From Paraflavitalea sp. CAU 1676 (lineage in GTDB: Bacteria > Bacteroidota > Bacteroidia > Chitinophagales > Chitinophagaceae): DNA of 64,000 nucleotides. The stretch covers positions 558,001 to 622,000 of the forward strand of contig NZ_JARHUJ010000001.1 of the NCBI RefSeq assembly GCF_029223285.1, written 5' to 3'. Shown piece after piece: positions 3,824-29,719 of this stretch. Both the position numbers and the translations under genes were made by a program. The notes under the pieces are model-generated. The model saw nothing but the letters and a program-made list of their open reading frames with translations. It did not search any database and had not been told where the DNA came from. The first letter of the stretch is position 1. Each line of letters starts with the position of its first letter.

Positions 3824-4840
3824 TTACATAACGAGGCGTACTATATAATATACAATTGCTGCGAGAATCATACTTACCGGGATGGTAAGTATCCAGGCCC
3901 AGAGGAGGTTGATGGTAACGCCCCAGCGTACGGCCGATAAACGTTTGGTAGCCCCTACACCCATGATGGCACCGGTGATGGTGTGGGTGGTTGATACGGG
4001 TATACCGAGGTGCTCGGTGAGGAACAGCGTGGCTGCACCGGCTGTTTCGGCTGCTACACCTTCCAGTGGCGTTACTTTGGTAATGCGGGTGCCCATGGTC
4101 TTTACGATCTTCCAGCCTCCGCTCATAGTTCCCAAACCAATGGCGGTGAAACAGGCGAGCGGTACCCAGTCCGGCACATGGCTCACGTTATCGAGCTTGC
4201 CACCAGCCACCATGGCGGCAGCGATCAGACCCAGTACTTTCTGGGCATCGTTACTACCGTGACCAAGGCTGAAGAGCGCCGATGATACCAGCTGCAGGCG
4301 ACGGAACCAGCTTTCTGCTTTATAGGGATTGGCTTTGCGGCATAGGTTCACGATGATCAGGGTTATGACCAATGCGACGAACATACCGATAAGTGGTGCA
4401 CCGAATATAAAGGCGAAGATGGGCAATACTACTTTGTAGTTGATAACAGTGAAGCCACCTTCCGAAAAGCCGCCTACGTGGGCCAGGGCAGCGCCCATAA
4501 AGCCTCCCAGCAGGGTGTGGGAAGAAGAGGAAGGGATCCCAAACCACCAGGTCAGCAGGTTCCAGGCGATGGCGGCTACGAGGGCCGAGAAGATCACCGG
4601 AAGCGTGATGAAGTGGGAGTTGATCGATTTCGCGAATGACATACCGATCTTGAATTCTCCGATCCAGTATTTGGCGATAAAGAAGGCTGCAAAGTTGAAT
4701 ACGGCTGCCCACAGTACCGCCTGAAAGGGGGTAAGTACTTTGGTAGAGACGATAGTGGCTATGGAGTTGGCGGCATCATGAAAGCCGTTGATATAGTCGA
4801 ATACCAGGGCCAGTATGATGATGATTACCAGGAAAGTCAT
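3824..4840 (-). CDS. Inorganic phosphate transporter, PiT family
   Basis: This 338-residue integral membrane protein should take up phosphate (as metal-phosphate, ion-coupled) across the inner membrane. Both signature repeats of the PiT/PHO4 family are visible: near the N-terminus DYINGFHDAANSIAT, and in the middle GHGSNDAQKVLGLI. A third conserved stretch, GIPVSTTHTITGAIMGVG, lies in the C-terminal half. Multiple hydrophobic segments cover most of the length. It follows a DUF47/PhoU-like gene on the same strand (79 bp gap), the usual partner of low-affinity PiT permeases. The pair is divergent from a porin O/P gene, so inner- and outer-membrane phosphate functions sit together. Confidence 0.93.
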   Translation of the reverse strand: MTFLVIIIILALVFDYINGFHDAANSIATIVSTKVLTPFQAVLWAAVFNFAAFFIAKYWIGEFKIGMSFAKSINSHFITLPVIFSALVAAIAWNLLTWWFGIPSSSSHTLLGGFMGAALAHVGGFSEGGFTVINYKVVLPIFAFIFGAPLIGMFVALVITLIIVNLCRKANPYKAESWFRRLQLVSSALFSLGHGSNDAQKVLGLIAAAMVAGGKLDNVSHVPDWVPLACFTAIGLGTMSGGWKIVKTMGTRITKVTPLEGVAAETAGAATLFLTEHLGIPVSTTHTITGAIMGVGATKRLSAVRWGVTINLLWAWILTIPVSMILAAIVYYIVRLVM

Positions 4841-4919
4841 AATTGGTTAATTTGAAAACCTGAATTGGGTGCTCGTTTTGAAAATAGCCTCAGTTCTAAA
4901 CCGGTGATTTTCAAACTAA

Positions 4920-5567
4920 TTACGCGTATTTAATGATGATGGACTCGATCACGTTGCCGGCATCTTCGCATTTGTCGGTAACGATCTCCATAACCTGGTA
5001 GATCTCTCTTTTCTTGATCACTTCCTTGGCATCGGGTTCTGTTTCGAACAGGCGGTCGATACTCATGTCGAAGATATCATCGGCCTGGTTCTCAATGCTG
5101 TTCACCTTTACGAGGGCATCGGTGATCTGGCGCATGTTGCGCATGTTGCGGAGCTCGAATACTGCGTTCTTGATCTGCTCGGAGGCCTGTTCGATCAGGT
5201 CGGCCATTTTCTGGATGCCCTGATCGTTGGGGTTTACTTTATAGAAGTTGATCTTTTTAGCAGAAGCGAAGATGTAATCTGCAATATCATCGAGCGCAGT
5301 AGCGAGGTAGTGAATGTCTTCGCGATCGAATGGGGTGATAAAGTTGCGGCCGAGCTCGGTGAAGATCTTGTGGGTGTAATCGTCGTTCACGTGCTCCATG
5401 TCCTCGATCTGGGCGATGATGGCGGCCCTTTTGTCGTAATCAGGTTCAGTTACTACGTCTTTCATCAACTTGCCCATCTGTGCCACTGTTACAGCCACCT
5501 GTTCGAACAGTGAGTAGAAGATCTTGTCTTTCGGCATGAAAATCTTCATAATTGAGTTTAAACCCAT
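4920..5567 (-). CDS. DUF47 family PhoU-like protein, partner of PiT
   Basis: This 215-residue helical protein is of the DUF47/PhoU-like family, cytoplasmic proteins nearly always encoded beside PiT permeases and thought to control them. The N-terminus MGLNSIMKIFMPKDKIFYSLFEQ is typical of the family in Bacteroidetes. The middle is rich in Asp/Glu/His helices (for example DMEHVNDDYTHKIF and EREDIHYLATALDDIADYI-like segments), which in PhoU-like folds bind metal clusters. An internal Met at 5549 is a less likely start. A TATTTTTG box on the minus strand at 5588-5595 lies about 20 bp before the start and would serve both this gene and the downstream permease. Confidence 0.9.
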   Translation of the reverse strand: MGLNSIMKIFMPKDKIFYSLFEQVAVTVAQMGKLMKDVVTEPDYDKRAAIIAQIEDMEHVNDDYTHKIFTELGRNFITPFDREDIHYLATALDDIADYIFASAKKINFYKVNPNDQGIQKMADLIEQASEQIKNAVFELRNMRNMRQITDALVKVNSIENQADDIFDMSIDRLFETEPDAKEVIKKREIYQVMEIVTDKCEDAGNVIESIIIKYA

Positions 5568-5632: not shown

Positions 5633-5676
5633 TAATAATTTCTTAACAATAGCCTTTTTTTCTCAATTTACCTTTG
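5633..5676 (+). promoter_or_regulatory. Porin O/P promoter with two possible Pho-type repeats
   Basis: TACCTTTG at 5669-5676 matches the TAnnTTTG -7 element and ends 18 bp before the ATG. Upstream, TAATAAT (5633) and TAACAAT (5644) are 11 bp apart and lie 36 and 25 bp before the -7 box. Two repeats of the receptor array at 7147-7186 stand at the same distances from their own -7 box. Two degenerate repeats alone are weak evidence. Confidence 0.4.
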
Positions 5677-5694
5677 CAGCAATGTTATGAATCT

Positions 5695-7005
5695 ATGAAG
5701 TTATTGTTAAGTGCACGCCGGACCGGAATTTTTATTGGATTGTTGGTATTGTCGCAAGTAGCTGAAGCACAATTCCTAATGGATATGGTGGATACAACAT
5801 CCGACGTCGGCAAAGGGTTGTTATCGCTGTATAGGAAATACGATCATCTTACCATAGGTGGGTATATGCAGCCACAGTTTCAGGTTGCCAGTTTTAAGGG
5901 GGCGGAAAGCTATAATGGGGGTGATTTTGCCCCACGTTCACAAAGCAGGTTTATGCTGCGGCGTGGTCGTATACGCCTGGAGTATGCACATTTCAATGAC
6001 AAGGACCAGCCCTCCGTGCAGTTTGTTTTCCAGTTCGATGGTACGGAGCGGGGGGTTAATATCCGTGATTTCTGGGGGCGTGTGTATGAAAATAAGTGGC
6101 AGCTTTTCACTTTTACCACGGGTATGTTTGCCCGCCCGTTCGGGTATGAGGTAAACCTGTCCTCCTCGGACCGGGAATCGCCGGAGCGTGGCCGCATGTC
6201 GCAGATCCTGATGCGCAGCGAGCGTGACCTTGGCCTGATGGCTTCCTTCGAGCCGCGCAGGCGCGGGAATTTCTGGAAATACGTAAAGCTTGATGTGGGT
6301 GCATTTAACGGCCAGGGATTGACGGGCCCGGGTGAGTATGACAGTTACAAGGACCTTATCAGCCGGTTCAGGATAAAGCCATACCCGGTTAGCAAAAAAC
6401 TTTCAGTGTCGGCCGGACTTTCTTTTCTGCAGGGAGGGTTCATTCAAAATACCAAGTATGTGTACAACGTAAAAGATGTGTCGGGTAAGAAGGAGTTTGT
6501 CGTCGATTCTTCGGATGATAACCTGTTTGATGAAGCGCCAAGGCAATACCGTGGGGCCGACATGCAATGGAAACTCACGCACAAATGGGGCGCCACGGAA
6601 CTGCGCAGCGAATATTGGTGGGGCACTCAAACGGCTACGGCCTTATCGTCGGAAACACCAGGGCTATTATTGACGACTCCTTATTATGTTAGAAAATTCA
6701 ATGGAGGCTTTTTCATTCTGCTGCATAATATCGTTAACAGCAAGCATCAGTTGGGCGTAAAGTTCGACTGGTACGATCCCAATACCGATGTAAAAGGTAG
6801 GGAGATCGGTGCACCAGGTACGCATCTATCCATTGCCGATATCCGTTACGATACCTGGAGCTTTGGCTATAACTATTATATCACCGATCACCTCAAGATG
6901 TTTGTGTGGTATGATGTGGTGAAAAATGAATCGACCTTATTGCCCGAATACACCAGCAACCGCCGTCCCAATGTGTTCACCTGGCGATTGCAGTTCAGGT
7001 TTTAA
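5695..7005 (+). CDS. Porin family O/P (phosphate-selective porin)
   Basis: The 436-residue protein has a clear signal peptide (MKLLLSARR..., cleavage near AEAQ). An alternating amphipathic, aromatic-rich beta-barrel sequence ends in ...FTWRLQFRF, a C-terminal Phe typical of outer-membrane barrels. Segments such as GGYMQPQFQVASFKG, FMLRRGRIRLEYAHF, FQFDGTERGVNIRDFWGRV and GMFARPFGYEVNLSSSDRESPERGRM are typical of the porin O/P (OprP/OprO-like) family. A TTG start at 5674 would add seven residues before the signal peptide, so the ATG at 5695 is preferred. It is divergent from the PiT-DUF47 pair, supporting a role in phosphate or polyphosphate passage. Selectivity cannot be read from sequence. 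Confidence 0.88.
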   Translation: MKLLLSARRTGIFIGLLVLSQVAEAQFLMDMVDTTSDVGKGLLSLYRKYDHLTIGGYMQPQFQVASFKGAESYNGGDFAPRSQSRFMLRRGRIRLEYAHFNDKDQPSVQFVFQFDGTERGVNIRDFWGRVYENKWQLFTFTTGMFARPFGYEVNLSSSDRESPERGRMSQILMRSERDLGLMASFEPRRRGNFWKYVKLDVGAFNGQGLTGPGEYDSYKDLISRFRIKPYPVSKKLSVSAGLSFLQGGFIQNTKYVYNVKDVSGKKEFVVDSSDDNLFDEAPRQYRGADMQWKLTHKWGATELRSEYWWGTQTATALSSETPGLLLTTPYYVRKFNGGFFILLHNIVNSKHQLGVKFDWYDPNTDVKGREIGAPGTHLSIADIRYDTWSFGYNYYITDHLKMFVWYDVVKNESTLLPEYTSNRRPNVFTWRLQFRF

Positions 7006-7030: not shown

Positions 7031-7063
7031 GAAGGAGCGATTTTGGTCGCTCCTTCTTCATTT
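7031..7063 (+). terminator. Terminator of the porin gene
   Basis: A perfect 10-bp inverted repeat, GAAGGAGCGA at 7031-7040 and TCGCTCCTTC at 7047-7056, with a six-base loop and a T-rich tail (TTCATTT). It starts 26 bp after the porin stop and ends 10 bp before the 11-bp repeat array of the next gene, separating the two units. Confidence 0.8.
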
Positions 7064-7074
7064 GGGGCCTTTGG

Positions 7075-7125
7075 TAACATTGACGAAACATTGCGGTAAC
7101 ATTGACGTAACATTCGCTTAACATT
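7075..7125 (+). promoter_or_regulatory. Upstream Pho-box-like array, five 11-bp repeats
   Basis: The heptamer (T/A)AACATT occurs at 7075, 7086, 7097, 7108 and 7119, each exactly 11 bp after the last, with spacers rich in G and C. OmpR/PhoB-family regulators bind such 11-bp direct repeats (E. coli CTGTCAT-N4; Bacillus PhoP TTAACA-N5), and this heptamer is close to the Bacillus form. It lies upstream of the TonB receptor gene at 7224. Confidence 0.7.
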
Positions 7126-7146
7126 GGAGCTGCAAACAGGGCCAGT

Positions 7147-7186
7147 TAATGATTCCTTAACATTGCAGTAATATGGCGGTAATATG
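7147..7186 (+). promoter_or_regulatory. Proximal Pho-box-like array, four 11-bp repeats
   Basis: TAATGAT (7147), TAACATT (7158), TAATATG (7169) and TAATATG (7180) are spaced exactly 11 bp apart. They form a second array out of phase with the first (39 bp between 7119 and 7158). The last unit lies 14 bp before the -7 box at 7194-7201, a position suited to activation by a PhoB-type response regulator. Confidence 0.65.
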
Positions 7187-7193
7187 ACGCTGA

Positions 7194-7201
7194 TACTTTT
7201 G
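7194..7201 (+). promoter_or_regulatory. -7 promoter box of the TonB receptor operon
   Basis: TACTTTTG is a full match to TAnnTTTG and ends 22 bp before the GTG start at 7224. No good -33 TTG element is seen at the usual distance, which fits an activator-dependent promoter. Confidence 0.6.
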
Positions 7202-7223: not shown

Positions 7224-10022
7224 GTGAGCAAAAAGTACGCCCTATTAGTGGTATTTATATTTGTAGCTTTTGTTTCCTTCGCCCAGTCCGGTAAGATTGC
7301 CGGTAAGGTCCTTAACAGTAAGAATGAACCCCTCCAGGGCGTATCGATCAAGATCGCCGGTGCTCCGGGAGGTACAACTACGGATGTTGAAGGACGGTTT
7401 TCCCTTACACTCTCTACTGGTAAAAAGTATGAACTGAATTTTACGGCTGTAGGATATGCTGCCAAGGTGGTGAATGATGTGGAGGTTACTGCAGGCCAGG
7501 TGAATGAACTTTCCATTATCATGGAGCGCGGTGGCGCAGAGCTGGGTGCCGTAACGGTGACCAGCCGCCGTACGGCGGCCCGCCTGGAATCCGTTAATGC
7601 GGTGATCGCCTTTCAAAAGAATACAGGCACCGTTGCTTCTGTCGTTTCTGCTGAAACGATCCGCCGCTCTCCCGATCGTAACACAGGTGACGTTTTGAAA
7701 AGAACGCCCGGTGCGAGCTTGCAGGAGGGTAAATTCCTGGTGGTTCGTGGTTTGGCCGACAGGTATAACCAGGCGATGCTGAACGGCATTCTCCTCACCA
7801 GTACCGAGCCCGATCGCAAGACTTTTTCGTTCGATCTGATCCCCGCTCCGATGATCGACAATATCGTGATCAACAAAGCCTTCCTGCCGGAGTATCCCGG
7901 CGAGTGGGCCGGTGGTTTGATCCAGGTGAATACCAAAGACATTCCTTCTCAATCGTTCCTGAACGTGCAGGTGGGTACCGGTTTCAATACCCAAACCATC
8001 GGTAAGGACTTTTATAAAGCAAAAGGTGGTAAATGGGATTGGCTGGGTATCGATGATGGTACCAGAGGTTTACCTCCCGGCTACACGACCAAATCCGACT
8101 TCGACATTTTGACGCCCGCTGAGAAAACGGCCTTAGGCAAGCAAATGGCGAATAACTGGACTGCTACCAGTAACAATGCTCCCCTCGACGTTTCATTCCA
8201 GGCCAATGGCGGTTTTGTTTCCAAATTGTTCAAGAAAACCGTGGGAGGCACTTTCGGTGTCACTTATAATAAGCGTAACAGGTATATCGATATGTTGAAC
8301 CAGCGCAACAGCATTTTGGGTTCTTCCGTATCGAAAAATTATTCTTATGATGACGATCGTTTTACACAGGATGTACTGGCTGGTGCGCTGGCGAGCCTGA
8401 GTATGCAGATCAATCCCCGCAACAAGGTGTCGGTGAAATCGATCATCAACGTAAACTCCACGAACTATTTCACCAACCGTTCCGGTCTGGATTTCGATCG
8501 TGGCAACGACGTGAGAGCTTCTGAAATCACTTTCAAGCAAAATACTTTCTTTACCACCCAGCTTAGTGGTGAGCATACGCTGGTTGCTCCCCTGCGTTTA
8601 AAATGGTATGGCGCCTTTAATATCCTGGATGGCTATATTCCCGATCAGCGCAGGATCGTTTACGCCCGCAATACAGGTACAAACAATCCTTACGGCATGC
8701 TGGTGGCCAACTCACTTTCTCAGGAAAGTGGTAGCCGCATCTTCCAGAACCTGAGCGACTATATCTATACTGCAGGTGGCGACCTTACTTATAACTTCGA
8801 CCTGTTTGGTCAACGCCAAACTGTAAAGGGTGGTTATATGTTGCAAATCAAAGATCGCCTTTACGATGCGAAACTGTTTGCCAACTATCTGCCCCGCGAC
8901 AATGCTTCTTTGCGTTTGTTGCCTGCCGACAAGATCTTTGCACCGGAAAACTTCGGTGATGGTGCTCCCAACAGCACATTGTTTGCTTTCGATGCGATCA
9001 AGGGTAACTCTTTCCGCTACCTCGCCAATACCATCCTGAATGCCGGTTTCATCCAGTTCGACAACCAGCTCAGCGACAAGTTCCGTGTGGTGTGGGGTGT
9101 GCGTGTTGAAAACTATGACCAACTGGTGGGTAGCGTTAAAAAATACGATCCACGCCATACTCATAGCGAGGTGCTCGACTGGCTGCCCGGTTTGAATGCT
9201 ACCTATAAATTAAATGACAAGACGAATCTCCGCCTGTCTGGTTCACAAACCGTGATCAGACCCGAGTTAAGAGAGCTTTCTTTCCTCAACCTGTATGATT
9301 TCGAGCTGAATGCTTCTGTACAGGGTAATCCTGACCTGCAGCGTACCAAGGCTACCAACTTCGATCTGCGTTATGAACTGTACCCAAGAGCTGGTGAAGC
9401 CATCACTTTCGGTGTGTTCTATAAGAACTTCGATAAAGCCATCGAGCAGATCTATAACGAAGGCAGCGGTGGTGCGAGCACATTCAATTTCCAGAATACC
9501 GATAAGGCCGAAAACTACGGTGTTGAGTTGGAATTCCGCAAACGCCTCGATTTCATCACCAGCCTGAAGAACTTTACGCTGACTGCCAATGCCGCTTATA
9601 TCAAGAGCCGGGTACAGGCAGATATACAGGGCGTAAAGATCGACCGGCAGATGCAGGGTCAATCGCCCTACCTGCTCAACCTCGGTTTGAACTATGACCT
9701 GCAGAAGCATGGTTTCAACGCAACCTTGTTGTTCAACCAAATCGGGGAGCGTATTTACCTCGTGGGAGATATCAGTGCCGGTGCCGGATCACCTGACATT
9801 TATGAGGCGCCTCGCGCTGTACTGGATTTTCAAATGGCTAAAAAGCTGTTGAAGAATAAAGGTGAGATCCGCCTGAATGTTACAGATATCCTGAACCGTA
9901 CTCAATACTTTTATCAGAATGCAGAAAGCAAGGACACTTTCCAAAAGAACAAAGATCCTTACCGCTTCACCAGAACATTCGGTACATCTATCGGTGTGAC
10001 TTTTAACTACTCTATATTATAA
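7224..10022 (+). CDS. TonB-dependent receptor, possibly phosphate-starvation inducible
   Basis: This 932-residue outer-membrane receptor has a signal peptide (VVFIFVAFVSFAQS), then a carboxypeptidase-like regulatory domain (about 22-100, with GKVLNSKNEPLQGVSIKI). A plug domain follows (about 125-240, with VLKRTPGASLQEGKFLVVRG and PEYPGEWAGGLIQVNTKDIP), then a long beta-barrel ending in ...IGVTFNYSIL. It imports a large or scarce substrate using TonB energy; the substrate is not visible in sequence. The start is GTG at 7224, 22 bp after a -7 box. It is followed after 26 bp by a lipoprotein gene rather than a susD, so this is not a classical SusC/SusD pair. Nine Pho-box-like repeats and the neighbouring phosphate transport genes suggest a phosphorus-containing substrate, which is inference. 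Confidence 0.9.
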   Translation: MSKKYALLVVFIFVAFVSFAQSGKIAGKVLNSKNEPLQGVSIKIAGAPGGTTTDVEGRFSLTLSTGKKYELNFTAVGYAAKVVNDVEVTAGQVNELSIIMERGGAELGAVTVTSRRTAARLESVNAVIAFQKNTGTVASVVSAETIRRSPDRNTGDVLKRTPGASLQEGKFLVVRGLADRYNQAMLNGILLTSTEPDRKTFSFDLIPAPMIDNIVINKAFLPEYPGEWAGGLIQVNTKDIPSQSFLNVQVGTGFNTQTIGKDFYKAKGGKWDWLGIDDGTRGLPPGYTTKSDFDILTPAEKTALGKQMANNWTATSNNAPLDVSFQANGGFVSKLFKKTVGGTFGVTYNKRNRYIDMLNQRNSILGSSVSKNYSYDDDRFTQDVLAGALASLSMQINPRNKVSVKSIINVNSTNYFTNRSGLDFDRGNDVRASEITFKQNTFFTTQLSGEHTLVAPLRLKWYGAFNILDGYIPDQRRIVYARNTGTNNPYGMLVANSLSQESGSRIFQNLSDYIYTAGGDLTYNFDLFGQRQTVKGGYMLQIKDRLYDAKLFANYLPRDNASLRLLPADKIFAPENFGDGAPNSTLFAFDAIKGNSFRYLANTILNAGFIQFDNQLSDKFRVVWGVRVENYDQLVGSVKKYDPRHTHSEVLDWLPGLNATYKLNDKTNLRLSGSQTVIRPELRELSFLNLYDFELNASVQGNPDLQRTKATNFDLRYELYPRAGEAITFGVFYKNFDKAIEQIYNEGSGGASTFNFQNTDKAENYGVELEFRKRLDFITSLKNFTLTANAAYIKSRVQADIQGVKIDRQMQGQSPYLLNLGLNYDLQKHGFNATLLFNQIGERIYLVGDISAGAGSPDIYEAPRAVLDFQMAKKLLKNKGEIRLNVTDILNRTQYFYQNAESKDTFQKNKDPYRFTRTFGTSIGVTFNYSIL

Positions 10023-10048: not shown

Positions 10049-11509
10049 ATGAAAAAGAAGATTTTTTTTCTCGCCGCATTTTCGGCACTTATCATAACAG
10101 GCTGCCGTAAAATAGAGATGGACGGAGAAAAAGAAGTGATCATTGTACCCGGTGGCGGAGGCGGTAACAACGGCCAGACTATTACCCTGAAAGGCCGTAT
10201 CGATGCCGATACCATTCTTCGTAAAAACAACACTTATATCCTGAGCGATAAAGTGTACATGGTAGGAAATCATACCATGACCATTGAAGCGGGCACAACG
10301 ATCAAAGGTGCTTATTCAGGTTCTGAAGTAGCTGTATTGATCATCAGCCGTGGTTCTAAGCTCGTGGCTAACGGCACTGTAGACAACCCAATCGTATTTA
10401 CTTCCAACTCACCCAATCCTGCTTCAGGCGACTGGGGTGGTATCATTCTCTGCGGTAAAGCAAGCATCAACACTTCTTTTGCCGGTACTGGTGGTGGCGT
10501 AGGTATCCTGGAAGTAGAAGGTGGTGTTAACAATGCCAATGGTGATGCTTTGGCCGGCGGTGGTGCAACTCCCAACGACGACGACAGCTCTGGCGTATTG
10601 AAATATGTGCGTATTGAATATGCCGGTTACGCTTTCCAACCCGATAAAGAAGTTAACAGTCTTACTATGGCTGCTGTAGGCCGCAAAACTGTGATCGATC
10701 ACGTACAGGTTGCTTATGCCAAGGACGATGCTTTCGAGTGGTTTGGTGGCACTGTAAACTGTAAATACCTGATCGCTTACAAAACGCAGGACGATGATTT
10801 CGATACCGACAACGGTTTCAGCGGCAGCGTTCAGTTTGGTTTGATCGTTCGTGATTCTGCCATTGCCGACGTTTCCAAATCAGAAGCTTTTGAAAGCGAT
10901 AATAACGTTAACGGCGACGTTATCAATCCACAAACAAAGGCTGTATTTTGTAACGTATCAGCTTTTGGTCCGCTGGCTACTTTGAGCAATGTGGGTAACA
11001 GCAACTTCCTGGGTTCTGCTGCCCAGATCAGAAGGAACTCGTCTATCTCTATCTTCAATACTGCTATCGTTGGCTGGCCTTCTGGTATCGAGATCAGTGC
11101 AGCGACTGGTAATGCTACCGATAAGAACATCACTGCCGGTACGCTGCAATTGAGCGGCATCGTAATCGCTGGTTGCAGGAAGCCTGTTGTATATGTCGAC
11201 AAATCTACTCCCACCGGTTATTCTGAAGCTCTTTTAACAGACTGGTTCAAGGAAGCTGGCCGCAAGAACCAAATTTTGAATACTGTAGACGAAATCCGTT
11301 ACACACGTCCTTTCGATTACAACAATCCAGATTGGGTTCCTTTCGGTAACTCTACCCTGGTACTTGGTACTCAAACCAAACCAAATACCTACTTCGAAGA
11401 TCCGATCCTGACAGCACGTATGCCTTTCATCGAGAAAGTTGACTTCCTGGGTGCTATCGCCCCAGCTGGTGCCTATGCAAACTGGCACAAAGGATGGACA
11501 AAGTTCTAA
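10049..11509 (+). CDS. Beta-helix-like surface lipoprotein paired with the TonB receptor
   Basis: The 486-residue protein has a lipoprotein signal peptide with lipobox (ALIITGC, Cys at about residue 19). The body has repeated short strands such as TMTIEAGTTIKGAY, LIISRGSKLVANG, NPIVFTSNSP and GDWGGIILCGKA, a pattern of right-handed beta-helix proteins widespread in Bacteroidetes. Blocks like GGGATPNDDDSSGVLKYVRI and KTQDDDFDTDNGFSG are rich in Asp and may bind calcium. No T9SS C-terminal domain is seen. It lies 26 bp behind the TonB receptor gene, with a terminator after it, so both form one operon. It may be the substrate-capturing partner of the receptor, in place of SusD; this is inference from position. 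Confidence 0.8.
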   Translation: MKKKIFFLAAFSALIITGCRKIEMDGEKEVIIVPGGGGGNNGQTITLKGRIDADTILRKNNTYILSDKVYMVGNHTMTIEAGTTIKGAYSGSEVAVLIISRGSKLVANGTVDNPIVFTSNSPNPASGDWGGIILCGKASINTSFAGTGGGVGILEVEGGVNNANGDALAGGGATPNDDDSSGVLKYVRIEYAGYAFQPDKEVNSLTMAAVGRKTVIDHVQVAYAKDDAFEWFGGTVNCKYLIAYKTQDDDFDTDNGFSGSVQFGLIVRDSAIADVSKSEAFESDNNVNGDVINPQTKAVFCNVSAFGPLATLSNVGNSNFLGSAAQIRRNSSISIFNTAIVGWPSGIEISAATGNATDKNITAGTLQLSGIVIAGCRKPVVYVDKSTPTGYSEALLTDWFKEAGRKNQILNTVDEIRYTRPFDYNNPDWVPFGNSTLVLGTQTKPNTYFEDPILTARMPFIEKVDFLGAIAPAGAYANWHKGWTKF

Positions 11510-11625: not shown

Positions 11626-12828
11626 TTATTGCGGGGAGTATTGATAAACCACCTGATAGTGGGTCTTTCGTAGGCTGGCGAGCATTTTACCAATGGGGAG
11701 GTCTTCCTTTTGTGGGGTAGGTTCGCAAATGGAATATTTATTGCCGTTGTATTCAATGGTCTTCCCTTTCGGCTTATCGAATTGTACAGCGATCGTAACG
11801 TGTTTGGGATATTCCAATACGATCATTGGCAGGTTGTAGATCTCTTTGACCAGGTAAAAGAAGAGGGCCACCCGGTCCTCGCAATCGCTTTGCTCAAAGA
11901 AAAGGGTTTGCTCGGGCGAAAGCCGCTTCTCAGTACCAAAGCTTTTGGTGTCTACTTCAAACAGAAAAGCGTATCGTGTAAACCGCATCAGGTAGTCTAC
12001 TCCTTTTTTAACACTCATGCCTTTTACGTTTTTCTTCAGGAGCGGTATCAGCGATAAATAGGTTTCCTGGCTAAGCGGAATATTCAATTGGGAGGCATAA
12101 TCGACTGTGGGGTAGTTGTTGAACAGCGTAATTAGCTGGGGATTCAATTTTACCTTGAAATGGTAGTCGTTATCATAATAGGTGAAATGGAGGTCTTTCT
12201 CCTGGTAATCCTGCGGGGAGAAGCTGGGCAGGTTTTTGATCTTATAGGAGAACACTTGTTTGGCCGATGCTTCCGGTACCGTCGTTTGTACAAAATGCAG
12301 TAAAGTGAAGTCTATGGCACCGTAGTCATGATAATTGAGGCAAACATACTGCCGGCCATCATTCACCCGGACAGGGATATCATACACTTCCTCGTCGCTC
12401 CGGATGTACAGGAGCAGCTTTTCGCCGGAGACGGTGATATACGCATCATACCCGGTTTTGATCAGCAGGAACCATTTGTACATGGTGTAGCGGGTATAGT
12501 CTTCGGATTTGGGGCTTATGATCTGGGCCGTTTTCCTGATAAGCTGATAAAACAGCCAATCATCCGGGTGGTATTTCTCTTTATAAGCCTGCAGGGCGGC
12601 GATCATTGATTGATAGGGGCTGGCATTGACCCGTATGTAAAAATCCGCCACAGTCTGTTGGGAGAGGGTACAGGCGCTTTGCTGCAAACTTTCTTTATTG
12701 AATGAAAAATGAAGTGGGGTACCGCAAAAGTCGTAGTGGATGGTAGATACACCTGGTTCGTTCTGTGACTTTGCTGGTTGGAAGCTTATCGCCAATAAGA
12801 GCCATAATATAGTACGTTGGTACATCAC
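11626..12828 (-). CDS. Secreted transglutaminase-like protein
   Basis: This 400-residue protein of unknown function has a signal peptide (WLLLAISFQPAKSQ). In the C-terminal third, the stretch FFEQSDCEDRVALFFYLVKE, then LPMIVLEYPKHVTIAV and later YSICEPTP, matches the Cys, His and acidic positions of the transglutaminase-like (papain-like) superfamily. The Cys lies in SDCEDRV and the His in KHVTIA. The N-terminal two thirds show a mixed strand/helix pattern without a recognised family. It probably acts in the periplasm or at the surface as a peptidase or crosslinking-type enzyme. It stands alone, convergent with the receptor operon, and no promoter motif was found. Confidence 0.65.
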   Translation of the reverse strand: MMYQRTILWLLLAISFQPAKSQNEPGVSTIHYDFCGTPLHFSFNKESLQQSACTLSQQTVADFYIRVNASPYQSMIAALQAYKEKYHPDDWLFYQLIRKTAQIISPKSEDYTRYTMYKWFLLIKTGYDAYITVSGEKLLLYIRSDEEVYDIPVRVNDGRQYVCLNYHDYGAIDFTLLHFVQTTVPEASAKQVFSYKIKNLPSFSPQDYQEKDLHFTYYDNDYHFKVKLNPQLITLFNNYPTVDYASQLNIPLSQETYLSLIPLLKKNVKGMSVKKGVDYLMRFTRYAFLFEVDTKSFGTEKRLSPEQTLFFEQSDCEDRVALFFYLVKEIYNLPMIVLEYPKHVTIAVQFDKPKGKTIEYNGNKYSICEPTPQKEDLPIGKMLASLRKTHYQVVYQYSPQ

Positions 12829-13794: not shown

Positions 13795-14829
13795 TTAATT
13801 AAAGATCAGATCGGGATAAGGGATGTCGAGTTCATACCGGAGATTGGTACAGCGCATCATCAGTATATTGATGATGGCCTCGGTGGAGTATTTATAGCTG
13901 ATGGTGGGCGTGTGCGGATCGTTGACCCAATCGTTAAAGGTATCCGGGAAATCGTCGTCCAGTTTATCGAGCGTTTTGATCCCGATCTTCTTCAGCGCTG
14001 CGGCATTACATTGTTGCTCATACTGTCCCTGTATGGGGATAGCGATCATTTTCTTCCTGAGGTGGATAGCTTCGGCCGGCGTTTCGAACCCGGCTCCGCA
14101 TATAATACCATGGCAACTGATAAGGCTTTGATTGAAATTCTCTTTATTGACGGGTGTCAGGGTGATATTTCCTTCGGTGCGGGGCGCTTTGGTTTGGCGG
14201 GAGAATACTTCAAAGCGGTGATCCTTGAAGGGGGCCAGCAGGGCCATCAACTCGTTGTCGCAATAGGAAGGCAGGTATACGGTGATATGGCCATCGTTGG
14301 TGGGCTCAGCCTGAAGTATCTCGGTTTTGATAACCGGTGAATAGATAAAATCATCGTACGATTCAAAATGGAGCCCGATGTACTGGCTGGCTTTGGCGTA
14401 GTTCTGCAAAACCCATTCTCCGACCTTGCTGGGCTTTTCGGGGCGCGGTGTTTTGGGGGATAGAAAGCTGGCCTGGTGTCCAAAATTGACCGAGGGCACT
14501 TTCTTTTTAGCACAGGCTATCGAGGTAATGCACTCAAAATCGTTTAATACGAGATCATATTTCTCTACCGGCAGGTCTCTTGCTTCTTTCATCATACGAA
14601 ACGGGGAGATGCTGCGGGTGAGTTTCCAATAGTCGAGTGAACCTTTGCAGGTATAAAAAAGGCTTAGTCCCTGGCTGCGGTATTTTACCGGAGCGTCGAG
14701 GGGCAGGGTGCTGTTGGCGCCGCTGAGAAAGAGGTCGACGGTGCCATAGTTTTGTAAAAAGGGCAATAGTTCCATGGCACGGCTGATATGCCCGTTGCCT
14801 GTTGCCTGCAATGCGTAGAGTATTTTCAT
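13795..14829 (-). CDS. MurG-like glycosyltransferase
   Basis: The 344-residue protein looks like a GT-B fold glycosyltransferase. The N-terminus MKILYALQATGNGHISRAMELL has the Gly-rich acceptor-side loop of MurG-like enzymes. The C-terminal half carries GIICGAGFETPAEAIHLRKK and MIAIPIQGQYEQQCNA, the nucleotide-sugar binding region. It should transfer a sugar from an activated donor to a lipid or glycan acceptor in the cytoplasm or at the inner membrane. It follows an LpxH-like phosphoesterase gene on the same strand by 14 bp, so both are probably co-transcribed and act on lipid or glycolipid. Donor and acceptor are unknown. Confidence 0.78.
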   Translation of the reverse strand: MKILYALQATGNGHISRAMELLPFLQNYGTVDLFLSGANSTLPLDAPVKYRSQGLSLFYTCKGSLDYWKLTRSISPFRMMKEARDLPVEKYDLVLNDFECITSIACAKKKVPSVNFGHQASFLSPKTPRPEKPSKVGEWVLQNYAKASQYIGLHFESYDDFIYSPVIKTEILQAEPTNDGHITVYLPSYCDNELMALLAPFKDHRFEVFSRQTKAPRTEGNITLTPVNKENFNQSLISCHGIICGAGFETPAEAIHLRKKMIAIPIQGQYEQQCNAAALKKIGIKTLDKLDDDFPDTFNDWVNDPHTPTISYKYSTEAIINILMMRCTNLRYELDIPYPDLIFN

Positions 14830-14843
14830 GTTGTCGGTGCTGG

Positions 14844-15680
14844 TTAGATGGCCAGTGAATTGATGTAAAAGTTGATCTCGTCGGTTACTACACTTACTTT
14901 CCTGCTCATGTCCGTGGCAGGGATATGTTGAAATTCCTTTTCGTCGTACTCAAATATTTTCCATTCGTTGTGGCTGTATTCAAGCGCGGTGAGGTGCTCG
15001 ACCCAATCACCGGAATTGAGGTAGGTTACTTTGCCCTGCTCATTTTCTACTACCCGTTTCTGTGGCTGGTGGATATGACCGCAGATCACATAGTCATATT
15101 TCTTTTCGATGGCCAGCTCGGCGGCGATCATTTCGAAGTCATTGATCTTGGTTACTGCTTTGTTGACCTCGGCCATTACTTTTTTGGAGATGGACAGTTT
15201 TTCCCGGCCAAACAGTTTAAGGACAAAGTTTACGAAACGGTTGAAGAGGATCAGCATGCCGTAGCCGCTGCTTCCCAGCTTGGCCAGGAATTTGGCGCCT
15301 CCCTTGGTGGTATTGTCAAACACATCTCCATGAAAGATCCAGGTCATCTTATTGTCGATCTCCAGCACAAGTTTATCGGTGAGGGTAAAATTGCTGAGTT
15401 GGAAATCGGCATAGCGACGTAACAATTCATCGTGGTTGCCGGTAATGTAGAAAACGCGGGTGCCCTTGGTCATAAGGTTGAGTACTTCCTTAATGACTGC
15501 CATATGAGAGGCAGGGAAATAGCGTTTTGAGAATTGCCAGCCGTCGATGATATCCCCGTTTAGGATGAGAATATTGGGTGCGATACTTTTTAAGTAGGCC
15601 ACCAGTTCGCGGGCATGGCATCCATAAGTGCCCAGGTGAACATCAGAGATTACGACTACGTCTACAGGACGTTTTTCCAT
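14844..15680 (-). CDS. LpxH-like metallophosphoesterase
   Basis: This 278-residue calcineurin-like phosphoesterase belongs with the UDP-2,3-diacylglucosamine diphosphatase-like group. All metal-binding blocks are visible: VVVISDVHLG, ILNGDIIDGW, FYITGNHDELL, WIFHGDVFD and YVICGHIHQP, followed by YLNSGDWVEHLTALEY. It probably cleaves a phosphoanhydride or phosphoester in lipid A or related lipid metabolism in the cytoplasm. An upstream in-frame ATG at 15707 adds nine residues; 15680 is preferred because MEKRPVDVVVISD is the usual beginning. It is the first gene of a pair with the glycosyltransferase and is divergent from the XRE-cupin regulator gene. The palindromic operator at 15785 lies between the two promoters. 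Confidence 0.82.
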   Translation of the reverse strand: MEKRPVDVVVISDVHLGTYGCHARELVAYLKSIAPNILILNGDIIDGWQFSKRYFPASHMAVIKEVLNLMTKGTRVFYITGNHDELLRRYADFQLSNFTLTDKLVLEIDNKMTWIFHGDVFDNTTKGGAKFLAKLGSSGYGMLILFNRFVNFVLKLFGREKLSISKKVMAEVNKAVTKINDFEMIAAELAIEKKYDYVICGHIHQPQKRVVENEQGKVTYLNSGDWVEHLTALEYSHNEWKIFEYDEKEFQHIPATDMSRKVSVVTDEINFYINSLAI

Positions 15681-15784
15681 GGAGCGCGGGTTTTGCAAAT
15701 ATCCCATGGTAGTGTTACCTCAATTTTAAGCGGACGTTAAGTAATTGTTTTCTATATGAGCTAGGTATTAGCCGATTATGAGAA

Positions 15785-16503: not shown

Positions 16504-16618
16504 TATTTATAAACAATTAATGCTTTGTTAAAACAGGCATAACCTTTCCTTTACACGGCACTTCTATTTTCGCTGCTCAATTTTTAACATCACGCTCTCC
16601 ATCTAAAATTTCTGTTTT

Positions 16619-24702: not shown

Positions 24703-24829
24703 ATAGAGATCCCAGGCTTGCCTGGCGCGGTAAGGTGCATGACTCCACGTGACTTGTTCACAGTTCAATAATCTTTAAGTAATAGAGGGGTTACATGTGG
24801 ATATTAGGTTTGTGTAACCTTTAAACAAC

Positions 24830-27145: not shown

Positions 27146-27934
27146 ATGAACCTCGACAAATTGTACGACAAAGCGATGGATTGGATCATCACCATGGGGC
27201 CCAGGATACTGGCTGCCTTGCTCGTATTACTGGTAGGACTGTGGATGATCCGGTTACTCAAAAGATGGACACGCACCCGCATCCAAAAACGGGCTATTTC
27301 CTCCACACTGGCTCCTTTTCTCCAAAGCCTGGTAATATCTCTGCTGTATGTATTGCTGGTATTGTTACTGATGCAGATTCTCGGTATTCAGATGACCTTG
27401 TTTGCTGCGATTATTGGCGGCGTTACCGTAGCGGCCGGCCTGGCCTTATCGGGCACCATGCAGAATTTTGCCAGCGGTATTTTGATCCTGCTGCTGAAGC
27501 CTTTCCGTATTGGTGATAATATCGTTACGCAAGGGCAGGAGGGCACTGTAACAGCCATTCAGATTTTTTATACGGTCATCACCACCTTCGATAACAAAAT
27601 AGTGATCGTGCCCAATAGCAAACTTTCGAATGAGATCATCATCAATACCAGCCGGGAGGGTAAGCGAAGAATGGATATTGAATTGAAGTTGAATTATGGG
27701 ATCGATATCGGGAAAGTGCGTTTTATTATTGAAGGTATCGTGCAGGACGATAAAGACATCCTGAACCAGCCGGAGCCACGGGTAGGGGTTTCGTCGCTCG
27801 ATTCCGACGGTTATAAGGTAATGGTCAATGCCTGGGTGAAGCCGCACGGCTTCCACGATGAACGAATGGGATTGCAGGAGAAAATAATTGACGGTATTAA
27901 GCGGGCGGGGATCAAGCTGCCGGGTATGGCTTAG
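27146..27934 (+). CDS. Small-conductance mechanosensitive channel (MscS family)
   Basis: The 262-residue inner-membrane channel protects against osmotic downshock. Three N-terminal hydrophobic segments (about 15-105) end in the pore-lining, Gly/Ala-rich helix VTVAAGLALSGTMQNFASGI. Then comes the conserved beta-domain start LLLKPFRIGDNIVTQGQEGT with VPNSKLSNEIIINTS, typical of MscS. The length is close to E. coli MscS (286). Its TAG stop overlaps the stop of the convergent histidine kinase gene by 4 bp (TTAG at 27931-27934). It is 76 bp behind the GT39 gene and may be a separate unit. Confidence 0.93.
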   Translation: MNLDKLYDKAMDWIITMGPRILAALLVLLVGLWMIRLLKRWTRTRIQKRAISSTLAPFLQSLVISLLYVLLVLLLMQILGIQMTLFAAIIGGVTVAAGLALSGTMQNFASGILILLLKPFRIGDNIVTQGQEGTVTAIQIFYTVITTFDNKIVIVPNSKLSNEIIINTSREGKRRMDIELKLNYGIDIGKVRFIIEGIVQDDKDILNQPEPRVGVSSLDSDGYKVMVNAWVKPHGFHDERMGLQEKIIDGIKRAGIKLPGMA

Positions 27935-28986
27935 GCATTGTCCCGCCTGGCTTCCAGCGAAAACCCAATAGTGGTGCCCACATCGGGTGTGCTGCGAGCG
28001 TGGATACTTTGACCATGTGCTTCGATAATGTGCTTGCAGATGGCCAGGCCCAATCCGGTGCCGCCCTTATCACGGCTGCGGGCCGTATCGGTGCGGTAGA
28101 AGCGTTCGAAGATGCGGTGCAGGTGCTCGGGTTCAATGCCGATGCCATCATCGCCTATTTCAACCAGCACATGGCTGTCGTCGGTTTTATAAACACTTGC
28201 GACTATAGTTCCATAGGGCCGTCCATACTTGGTAGCATTCTCAACGAGGTTGATCAATACCTGCTTGATCTTTTCCTTGTCAGCAAAAACGGTAATGGGT
28301 GCTTCGCAGCCTTTTTTGATCGTGGTCTTGATGTTCTTTTCCTGGATCTTGATCGACAGAGAATCATAGATCTCCCTGATCAGGTCCTGTATCACGAAGT
28401 TCTGCTTGTATAACAATTGCTCTCCGCTTTCGAGACGGGATATTTCATCCAGGTCATTGACGAGGTTTACCAAACGGTCGACATTCTTGGAAGTGTTTTC
28501 CAGGAACTTCTTGCGGATTACCTCTTCATCCATCGCGCCGCCGAGCAGGGTGTCTACATATCCCTGGATGGCGAATATGGGGGTCTTGATCTCGTGGGCC
28601 AGGTTTTGAAGAAACTCTTTGCGGTAGGCCTCATTCTTCTGAAGCATTTCTATTTCCTTGTTCCGGCGTTCACCCCAGGCTTCCACATCGGCCCTTACTT
28701 CATCGATACTTTTCTGAGGAAGTATGTATTTGAAATAGACCTCTTCTTTCTTGGTCGCCTTGGTTTGATAGATCAGCTTATAGATCAATTTGATCTTCCG
28801 GTAGATAAACTTCTCCAGGGTAAAAATGATCAACGCATAGCTTCCGGCAAATACCAGGGCAAACGAGCCCAGCCCCACCCGCCAGTCGAAGGTGAACAGG
28901 AAGATGCCGATGGCGATGGGTATCGATAAAATACCTGCTGTAAAAGCGGCCAGCTGCCGGGGAGAAAGGTTTTTGGTGGAGAACAT
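27931..28986 (-). CDS. Sensor histidine kinase, PhoR-like
   Basis: This 351-residue membrane kinase has two transmembrane helices at about 13-32 and 38-57 with almost no periplasmic loop, then a linker. The HisKA domain carries His131 in LAHEIKTP, and the C-terminal ATPase domain has VLINLVENATKYG (N box), IGDDGIGIEPEHLHRIFERF and GTGLGLAICKHI. It phosphorylates the response regulator encoded just upstream (46 bp gap). The short N-terminal sensor without a large input domain resembles PhoR-type kinases, which sense through partner transporters, so a role in phosphate signalling is plausible given the neighbourhood. That is inference; osmotic or envelope sensing is equally possible. Confidence 0.88.
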   Translation of the reverse strand: MFSTKNLSPRQLAAFTAGILSIPIAIGIFLFTFDWRVGLGSFALVFAGSYALIIFTLEKFIYRKIKLIYKLIYQTKATKKEEVYFKYILPQKSIDEVRADVEAWGERRNKEIEMLQKNEAYRKEFLQNLAHEIKTPIFAIQGYVDTLLGGAMDEEVIRKKFLENTSKNVDRLVNLVNDLDEISRLESGEQLLYKQNFVIQDLIREIYDSLSIKIQEKNIKTTIKKGCEAPITVFADKEKIKQVLINLVENATKYGRPYGTIVASVYKTDDSHVLVEIGDDGIGIEPEHLHRIFERFYRTDTARSRDKGGTGLGLAICKHIIEAHGQSIHARSTPDVGTTIGFSLEARRDNA

Positions 28987-29032: not shown

Positions 29033-29719
29033 TTATACGTCAAACTTATAACCTACCCCTTTTACTGTTGTAATGCAGTCGATGCCAAGCTTTTGACGCA
29101 CTTTACGAATGTGTACGTCGATGGTGCGGTCGCCTACGATCACATCGTTGCCCCACACCTGGTTCAGTATTTCGTTGCGGAGGAATACCCGGCCTGGCTT
29201 GGATGCCAGCAGATACAGTAATTCAAATTCCTTTTTGGCCAGTACGACGGATTTGCCATCGACTTTGGCTTCAAACTTAACAGGGTCGATTTCCAGGTTG
29301 TCGATACGTATCACTTTTTCGCCTTCCGGTTCTTTGGCGGCTGTACGGCGAAACAGTGCATTTACCCTGCTAACCAATATTTTAGGGCTAACGGGTTTGC
29401 TGATATAGTCGTCTGCTCCGGTTTCGAGGCCCTTTACATGGGAGCCTTCATCGCTCAGGGCAGTCAGGAACAATATGAGGGTATCCTTAAACGAAGGTTG
29501 CGACCGCAGTATCTCACACACTTCCACACCGTTCTTCTTGGGCATCATAATGTCCAGCACGATCAGGTCCGGGTTATTGGAACGGGCTTTTGTAAGGGCC
29601 TCGTCTCCGTCCTTGGCCGTCAGCACGTCATATCCTTCCTTTTGCAGGTTGTATTGTATGATTTCCAGGATGTCCGGCTCATCATCAGCGATCAGGATCT
29701 TCTTACCTTTAGAATCCAT
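29033..29719 (-). CDS. Response regulator, OmpR/PhoB family
   Basis: The 228-residue regulator has a receiver domain with acidic pocket Asp12-Asp13, phosphoacceptor Asp56 in LIVLDIMMP, the conserved Thr in FLTALSD and Lys in DDYISKPVSPK. A C-terminal winged helix follows, with RNEILNQVWGNDVIVGDRTIDVHIRKVR-like content and KGVGYKF. OmpR/PhoB regulators bind direct repeats with 10-11 bp spacing, which matches the arrays before the TonB receptor at 7224 and possibly the porin. The start at 29719 (MDSKGKKILIADDE) is chosen over an in-frame codon at 29740. It is co-transcribed with the kinase gene at 27931-28986. Whether it is PhoB itself cannot be settled by reading. Confidence 0.9.
   Translation of the reverse strand: MDSKGKKILIADDEPDILEIIQYNLQKEGYDVLTAKDGDEALTKARSNNPDLIVLDIMMPKKNGVEVCEILRSQPSFKDTLILFLTALSDEGSHVKGLETGADDYISKPVSPKILVSRVNALFRRTAAKEPEGEKVIRIDNLEIDPVKFEAKVDGKSVVLAKKEFELLYLLASKPGRVFLRNEILNQVWGNDVIVGDRTIDVHIRKVRQKLGIDCITTVKGVGYKFDV

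Follow-up and report, generated by a model that had tools for sequence, protein, structure and literature searches.

Nine phased Pho-box-like repeats in two registers before a TonB receptor operon of Paraflavitalea and its relatives

Upstream of a TonB-dependent receptor operon in Paraflavitalea sp. CAU 1676, nine heptamers lie at 11-bp spacing in two phases, which raises the question of what reads them and in response to which signal. A preliminary description of the window (the whole 64,000-nucleotide stretch analysed here) likened the repeats to Pho boxes and saw in the receptor and its lipoprotein partner a phosphate-starvation system. Our analysis favours this reading with a probability of roughly nine in ten: the repeats are very probably Pho boxes, targets of the PhoB-type regulator whose gene lies at 29033-29719, and would switch the receptor operon on at phosphate starvation. 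We infer from the sequence that PhoB binds here and that the operon answers to phosphate in this strain, and likewise what the distal repeats do. The reading as a whole draws on a conserved array and register, a fixed distance to the -7 box, recurrence before phosphate genes, a phosphate-induced counterpart in F. johnsoniae, and the genome's best PhoB match, which has orthologues in the neighbourhood of the operon in relatives.

Geometry of the array and its place in the promoter

The distal array (7075-7125, plus strand) comprises five heptamers, TAACATT at 7075, 7097, 7108 and 7119 and AAACATT at 7086, and the proximal array (7147-7186, plus strand) comprises four, TAATGAT at 7147, TAACATT at 7158 and TAATATG at 7169 and 7180; three of the nine deviate from (T/A)AACATT. 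The pitch is 11 bp everywhere inside each array, and the 28-bp step from 7119 to 7147 places the two arrays in different registers, separated by a 21-bp spacer (7126-7146, plus strand) whose length is kept and whose sequence is partly kept (68% identity). Seven base pairs past the last heptamer, which ends at 7186, lies the -7 box TACTTTTG (7194-7201, plus strand), and the GTG start of the receptor gene follows at 7224. The preliminary description had reported the heptamer positions, their exact spacing, the nine units in two phases and the 7-bp distance to the box, and all of these were confirmed on the sequence. We take TACTTTTG to belong to the Bacteroidota TAnnTTTG class of -7 boxes; the proximal array would lie where a -33 element is normally found. 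Further upstream, a perfect 10-bp inverted repeat with a 6-nt loop (7031-7056, plus strand) may be the terminator of the preceding porin gene.

Chance is excluded as the origin of the array. In 40 first-order Markov simulations of the 64-kb window, with both strands searched and a unit counted at 5/7 matches or more, the frequency of three-unit chains was 0.425 per 64 kb, and none of four or more units arose. The window itself holds one other chain of at least four units, which runs from 15750 on the minus strand and precedes a phosphoesterase gene. The composite of three units plus TTTG occurs without mismatch at a single place in the 8.84-Mb genome, namely the array at 7075-7201.

The arrangement shares with the PHO box of E. 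coli PhoB its direct repeats (at least two) of seven conserved and four variable nucleotides, its 11-bp pitch and its fixed position directly before the core promoter, here 7 bp from the -7 box, and both stand before phosphate genes. It differs in its word, TAA(C/T)ATT here versus CTGTCAT in E. coli (according to passages of PMC4415409), and in its extent, the E. coli box having two 11-nt units and the present operator nine in two registers, followed at a constant distance of 7 bp by a Bacteroidota -7 box. Streptomyces PhoP operators, as described in passages of PMC7866108, likewise consist of several units with graded conservation and give rise to several bound complexes; pitH2 has four core and two weaker units, and glpQ2 has five. 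Published Streptomyces operators thus reach six units, beyond the two to four that the preliminary description had called usual. The operator studied here exceeds these in unit number and adds a second register at a conserved 28-bp step, a feature absent from the passages of PMC7866108.

Conservation and recurrence of the array

Receptor relatives were compared in a named set of 17 loci, 14 of which have upstream DNA; the nearest is that of Paraflavitalea pollutisoli, with 88% receptor identity. A phased array of at least four units is present in all of the 11 closest orthologues with upstream DNA, and a box ending TTTG stands exactly 7 bp after the array in ten of these, L052 having TACTTTTA (TTTA) instead. 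Across the window and these 11 orthologues, the third position of the word is invariably A (67 of 67 units). Flavobacterium lacus (L060) shows 4/5 phased units at 18 bp (7+11) from TTTCTTTG, and inspection of the upstream DNA of two distant relatives revealed no convincing array in L058 and none in L059.

Within the family, a receptor relative is present in 91 of the 147 genomes searched. A weight matrix trained on the 11 named orthologues, with the window left out, was used to score the promoters of the best 30 of these 91 relatives, a set that includes the window and shares some genomes with the training set. Scores of at least 24, with three to six units counted, were obtained for 27 of the 30. 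In 100 simulations of the 64-kb window no site scored above 23.0. The misses were L095, whose upstream DNA is cut off, and L105 and L106, whose upstream DNA is present and contains no good array.

The distance to the box was evaluated in 31 promoters by placing the array without using the box, which gave a clear array in 29. The first TTTG lay at 7 bp in 21 of these 29. In L090, L108, L109 and L110 the blind placement fell on the distal array, and the proximal one is 7 bp from the box; in L107 one false last unit was counted, without which the distance is 7 bp; in L092 one TTTG stands at 2 bp and another at 7 bp; L086 carries TTTC instead of TTTG at the box position; and in L099 the placement fell on a far site, the near array having 7 bp in the family scoring. 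Overall, the 7-bp distance from array to -7 box is nearly invariant.

Under the same matrix, three promoters of the window outscore all 100 simulations: those of the receptor (42.5), the porin (site at 5644, 30.1) and the phosphoesterase (site at 15717, 28.0). The porin promoter carries a two-unit Pho-box-like site (5633-5676, plus strand), with TAATAAT at 5633 and TAACAAT at 5644, 18 bp (7+11) before TACCTTTG at 5669-5676; the gene (5674-7005, plus strand) encodes a Porin_O_P family porin (30.7 bits, cut-off 20.9). The phosphoesterase is preceded by a degenerate four-unit array (15696-15750, minus strand), with units from 15750 to 15711, then 7 bp and GATATTTG at 15703-15696. From its family match, this calcineurin-like protein (14844-15707, minus strand) is a putative PlcP-like enzyme; its real start is probably a later ATG, directly after the -7-like box. 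It adjoins a Glyco_trans_1_3 glycosyltransferase gene (13795-14829, minus strand; family match). The pair resembles the PlcP-glycosyltransferase lipid-remodelling operons described in passages of PMC4796936, in which a phosphoesterase also stands beside a glycosyltransferase with an upstream Pho box, but the window's pair is assigned purely by family and neighbourhood.

A SusCD-like pair and a PAP2 phosphatase are also encoded downstream of the receptor operon. Weak Pho-box-like sites lie at 16551, before the SusCD-like pair (16619; score 20.3), and at 24791, before the phosphatase (24830; score 18.6), both above most, not all, simulations; simulated sites occur at 0.03 per 64 kb for scores of at least 20 and 0.08 for scores of at least 18.

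The preliminary description had proposed scanning the organism's own genome to see whether such repeats precede phosphate genes. A two-unit pattern with three mismatches was too lax, the control outnumbering the real matches (472+539 versus 291+328). Three units without the box gave 13 matches versus 5 in the control, five of the 13 falling within the window's arrays; the other eight have no clear phosphate gene beside them, as judged by eye from their ORFs, and the ORF tested among them (L040) matched no Pfam family. Three units plus the box, with three mismatches allowed, gave 5 matches versus 0 in the control, one being the window's own; the other four, judged by eye, showed nothing convincing, and one of them precedes an LPG_synthase_TM gene. 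The two-unit-plus-box pattern was not enriched (15 versus 12 in the control), and the proposed scan gave no support in the organism's own genome.

Sixty genomes of the family were scanned with the three-unit-plus-TTTG pattern at up to two mismatches, the reversed pattern serving as control, and yielded 51 matches, one of them the window, versus 6 for the control. As downstream ORF we took the longest of at least 90 aa within 450 bp, and a receptor orthologue was defined by at least 150 bits. Forty-eight matches have such an ORF, and three (G045:C1, G049:C83 and G033:C30) have none in the available DNA. The ORFs include 16 receptor orthologues, 6 PlcP-like phosphoesterases and 4 beta-helix lipoproteins (one at 149 bits), which together make up 26 of the 48. 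Eight further matches, from seven genera and with two before one gene, precede Oar-like OMP_b-brl_4 receptors (L140, L116, L142, L118, L123, L127 and L133), which are likely a second phosphate-regulated receptor family. Four, from four genera, precede a Pfam-less family of ~400 aa with 46-54% identity that appears porin-like by eye (L121, L148, L138 and L139). The others comprise two other Plug receptors, one SusC-like protein, one type I phosphodiesterase, two related proteins (one with a CHU_C domain) and, for the remaining four, a short family-less protein, a weak OMP_b-brl match, a Band_7 protein and a GH1 protein. Both in the window and in the 60 genomes, then, the array recurs before phosphate-starvation genes.

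This recurrence also bears on a reading that dispenses with a regulator, in which the repeats would be a structural element of phased bends or a simple tandem repeat. Tandem Repeats Finder does report 7073-7126 as a tandem repeat, but the word, the pitch and the -7 box distance recur before unrelated genes and across genera while the linkers vary, and we give such a reading hardly any weight.

Receptor operon, regulator and phosphate sensing

The operon encodes a 932-aa TonB-dependent receptor with CarboxypepD_reg-like, Plug and beta-barrel family matches (7224-10022, plus strand) and a 486-aa lipoprotein with a lipobox-like ITGC (10049-11509, plus strand), for which a pectate-lyase-like beta-helix fold is weakly suggested. 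The lipoprotein has no sequence match in Pfam, NCBIfam or PDB; its structure model is of medium confidence (mean pLDDT 75.8), and when it was compared with PDB folds, a pectate lyase and an alginate lyase came out best, with no match below E 0.001. The probable cargo of the receptor is a phosphorus compound, which the lipoprotein would bind or process. A 400-aa protein without Pfam match is encoded at 11626-12828 on the minus strand and retains its place next to the operon in L044 and L047.

In its gene content, the receptor operon appears to correspond to the phoBR-linked TBDT/lipoprotein pair of F. johnsoniae, with the protein comparison made via F. lacus, whose layout matches the locus-tag order of Fjoh_0543-0546; the F. 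lacus homologues are 31% (receptor) and 37% (lipoprotein) identical to the window's proteins. In the PUSIV / phoBR cluster of F. johnsoniae (Fjoh_0541-0549), as described in passages of PMC8115612, a receptor and a beta-helix (IPR011050) lipoprotein are similarly clustered with an OprP porin, a glycosyltransferase, PhoR and PhoB. In contrast, the window's phoBR lies ~16 kb away from the operon, and the operator is absent from those passages. For phosphate depletion, the transcriptome column 'FC' in the same passages (scale taken as log2) gives 8.02 for the TBDT Fjoh_0545, 9.91 for the lipoprotein Fjoh_0546, 3.06 for PhoB Fjoh_0544 and 8.59 for PlcP Fjoh_4577, whereas neither OprP from the phoBR cluster (-1.3, FDR 0.245) nor PhoR (0.76) changed significantly. 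By analogy, the strongly induced pair supports the earlier proposal that the receptor and beta-helix lipoprotein form a phosphate-starvation system; the case for the window's porin as a regulon member is weaker, since the F. johnsoniae OprP was not induced.

The response regulator encoded at 29033-29719 (minus strand) is the genome's best PhoB match, with 224 bits against the Bacteroidota PhoB model and 178.7 for the next best protein, and a histidine kinase with a PhoR/PnpS-like family match is encoded at 27931-28986 (minus strand). Because the regulator scores below the curated cut-offs of the PhoB models (NCBIfam TIGR02154 / NF053854; 234.3 versus 296.2 and 224.3 versus 270), we call it PhoB-like; the F. 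lacus homologue encoded in the phoBR arrangement, at 214.5 and 205.1 bits, likewise falls below both. The DNA-binding domain of the window's regulator aligns with that of E. coli PhoB (3t72, E 5.1e-18), which ranks fourth behind three entries for other OmpR-family proteins. For phoB itself the weight matrix gave no significant site, and a site at its start (29723, score 15.5) was dropped, the -7 box being absent.

The missed cut-offs, together with 11 matches in the genome that span the whole PhoB model, speak for an alternative in which a different member of the OmpR family, one that prefers TTAACA-like sites and answers to another signal (e.g. redox), occupies the array, phosphate being at most one input. 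According to passages of PMC9603813, R. anatipestifer PhoP binds a motif with the core TTTAACA, reported to be similar to that of E. coli ArcA, and a role in oxidative stress was proposed. Against this stand the phosphate genes behind arrays in many genera, the phosphate-induced operon counterpart of F. johnsoniae (passages of PMC8115612) and the gene neighbourhood: in L049 and L052 the orthologues of the 29033-29719 regulator (68 and 76% identity) are encoded a few kb from the operon, while PhoR-PhoB of F. lacus (L060) runs divergently from the homologues of the window's receptor and lipoprotein. We consider such a regulator improbable and retain the PhoB-type protein of 29033-29719 as the likely reader of the array.

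When phosphate runs out, the kinase of 27931-28986 would phosphorylate PhoB, and PhoB~P would fill the four proximal units head to tail, replace the -33 element and hold RNA polymerase at the -7 box, such that the TonB receptor and the beta-helix lipoprotein would be switched on. Recruitment of the polymerase by PhoB~P is suggested by geometry, since the proximal units occupy the -33 place.

Phosphate sensing may be less conventional. The genome (99.97% complete) has no PstB above the cut-off (best 178.3 versus 343.2 bits) and no match to PhoU (PF01895), and the same searches on 14 control genomes found PstB in all 14 (13 over the cut-off) and PhoU in 13. As judged by the PstB and PhoU models, this is not a canonical Pst/PhoU-controlled Pho regulon. 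A PHO4 family, PitA-like phosphate transporter (3824-4840, minus strand; family match) and a PhoU_div protein (DUF47, PitR-like; 4920-5567, minus strand; family match) form a pair (3824-5567) located 1.5 kb away from the array. S. aureus PitR, a PitA-linked regulator, is reported to repress PhoR (passages of PMC13170248). Given this precedent and the PstB and PhoU results, the PitA/PitR-like pair may be the sensor partner of the Pho system.

The two-register operator

Conservation of the distal array was assessed by column identity among four genus promoters (window, L044, L079 and L109), leaving out L108, which repeats L044, and L110, which has a deletion. Distal heptamers are 85% identical, compared with 43% for their linkers and 40% for the DNA upstream; in the proximal array the heptamers are 93%, the linkers 88% and the box 100% identical. 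Of 10 promoters compared, from two genera with ~57% receptor identity, 9 retain the 28-bp register (8 of 9 distinct ones), and in 8 of the 10 no step scores better than 28 bp; in L090 a step of 39 scores slightly above 28 (30.5 versus 29.7) and preserves the same register. This conservation supports selection on the distal array. Since 28 bp corresponds to ~2.7 helical turns, the two arrays would face different sides of the DNA.

A distal array that is a functionless leftover of unit duplication, with only the proximal four units mattering, would also be compatible with the Pho-box reading. An 11-bp pitch favours gain and loss of units by slippage, and the distal array of L110 is short by exactly one 11-bp unit, which indicates that unit number varies stepwise. 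In the sister genus, L173 lacks a distal array at the 28-bp step and carries just one pair 44 bp upstream, in phase. Among the 30 family promoters, those from outside the two genera showed no second register of this kind. However, drift alone sits poorly with distal heptamers that are far more conserved than their linkers and flank, and with a register held across two genera at ~57% receptor identity; a leftover is thus possible but the doubtful option. Two further genomes of the second genus yielded no receptor orthologue at the threshold used. The receptor of L173 (G151, genus g3) is 74% identical to the window's, compared with 57-58% for its congeners, and gene exchange is possible. The distal array was also considered as a second promoter and rejected, the TTTG box being absent from the right place.

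Most likely, then, the five distal units at their fixed 28-bp step serve as an upstream loading site for PhoB~P, which would raise occupancy and sharpen the response. A bolder joint reading, which we put forward only tentatively, is a two-register operator in which PhoB arrays on different DNA faces, locked by the 28-bp step, would together form a counting device that sets threshold and steepness of the phosphate response, in a regulon without Pst and PhoU that is run by a PitA/PitR-type sensor.

In searches of an open-licence library, judged mostly from titles and abstract starts, we recognised no description of these arrays. New here are the Chitinophagaceae Pho-box rule, the array length, and the two-register operator with its 28-bp step kept in two genera. 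The conserved two-register array raises the question of what role the extra PhoB sites play, and a genome with no PstB above the cut-off and no PhoU match raises that of how PhoR senses phosphate without Pst. For the family, the analysis ties an outer-membrane receptor and a beta-helix lipoprotein to phosphate scavenging, and the rule, several TAA(C/T)ATT units at 11 bp followed after 7 bp by the -7 box, would make phosphate regulons predictable in many Bacteroidota.
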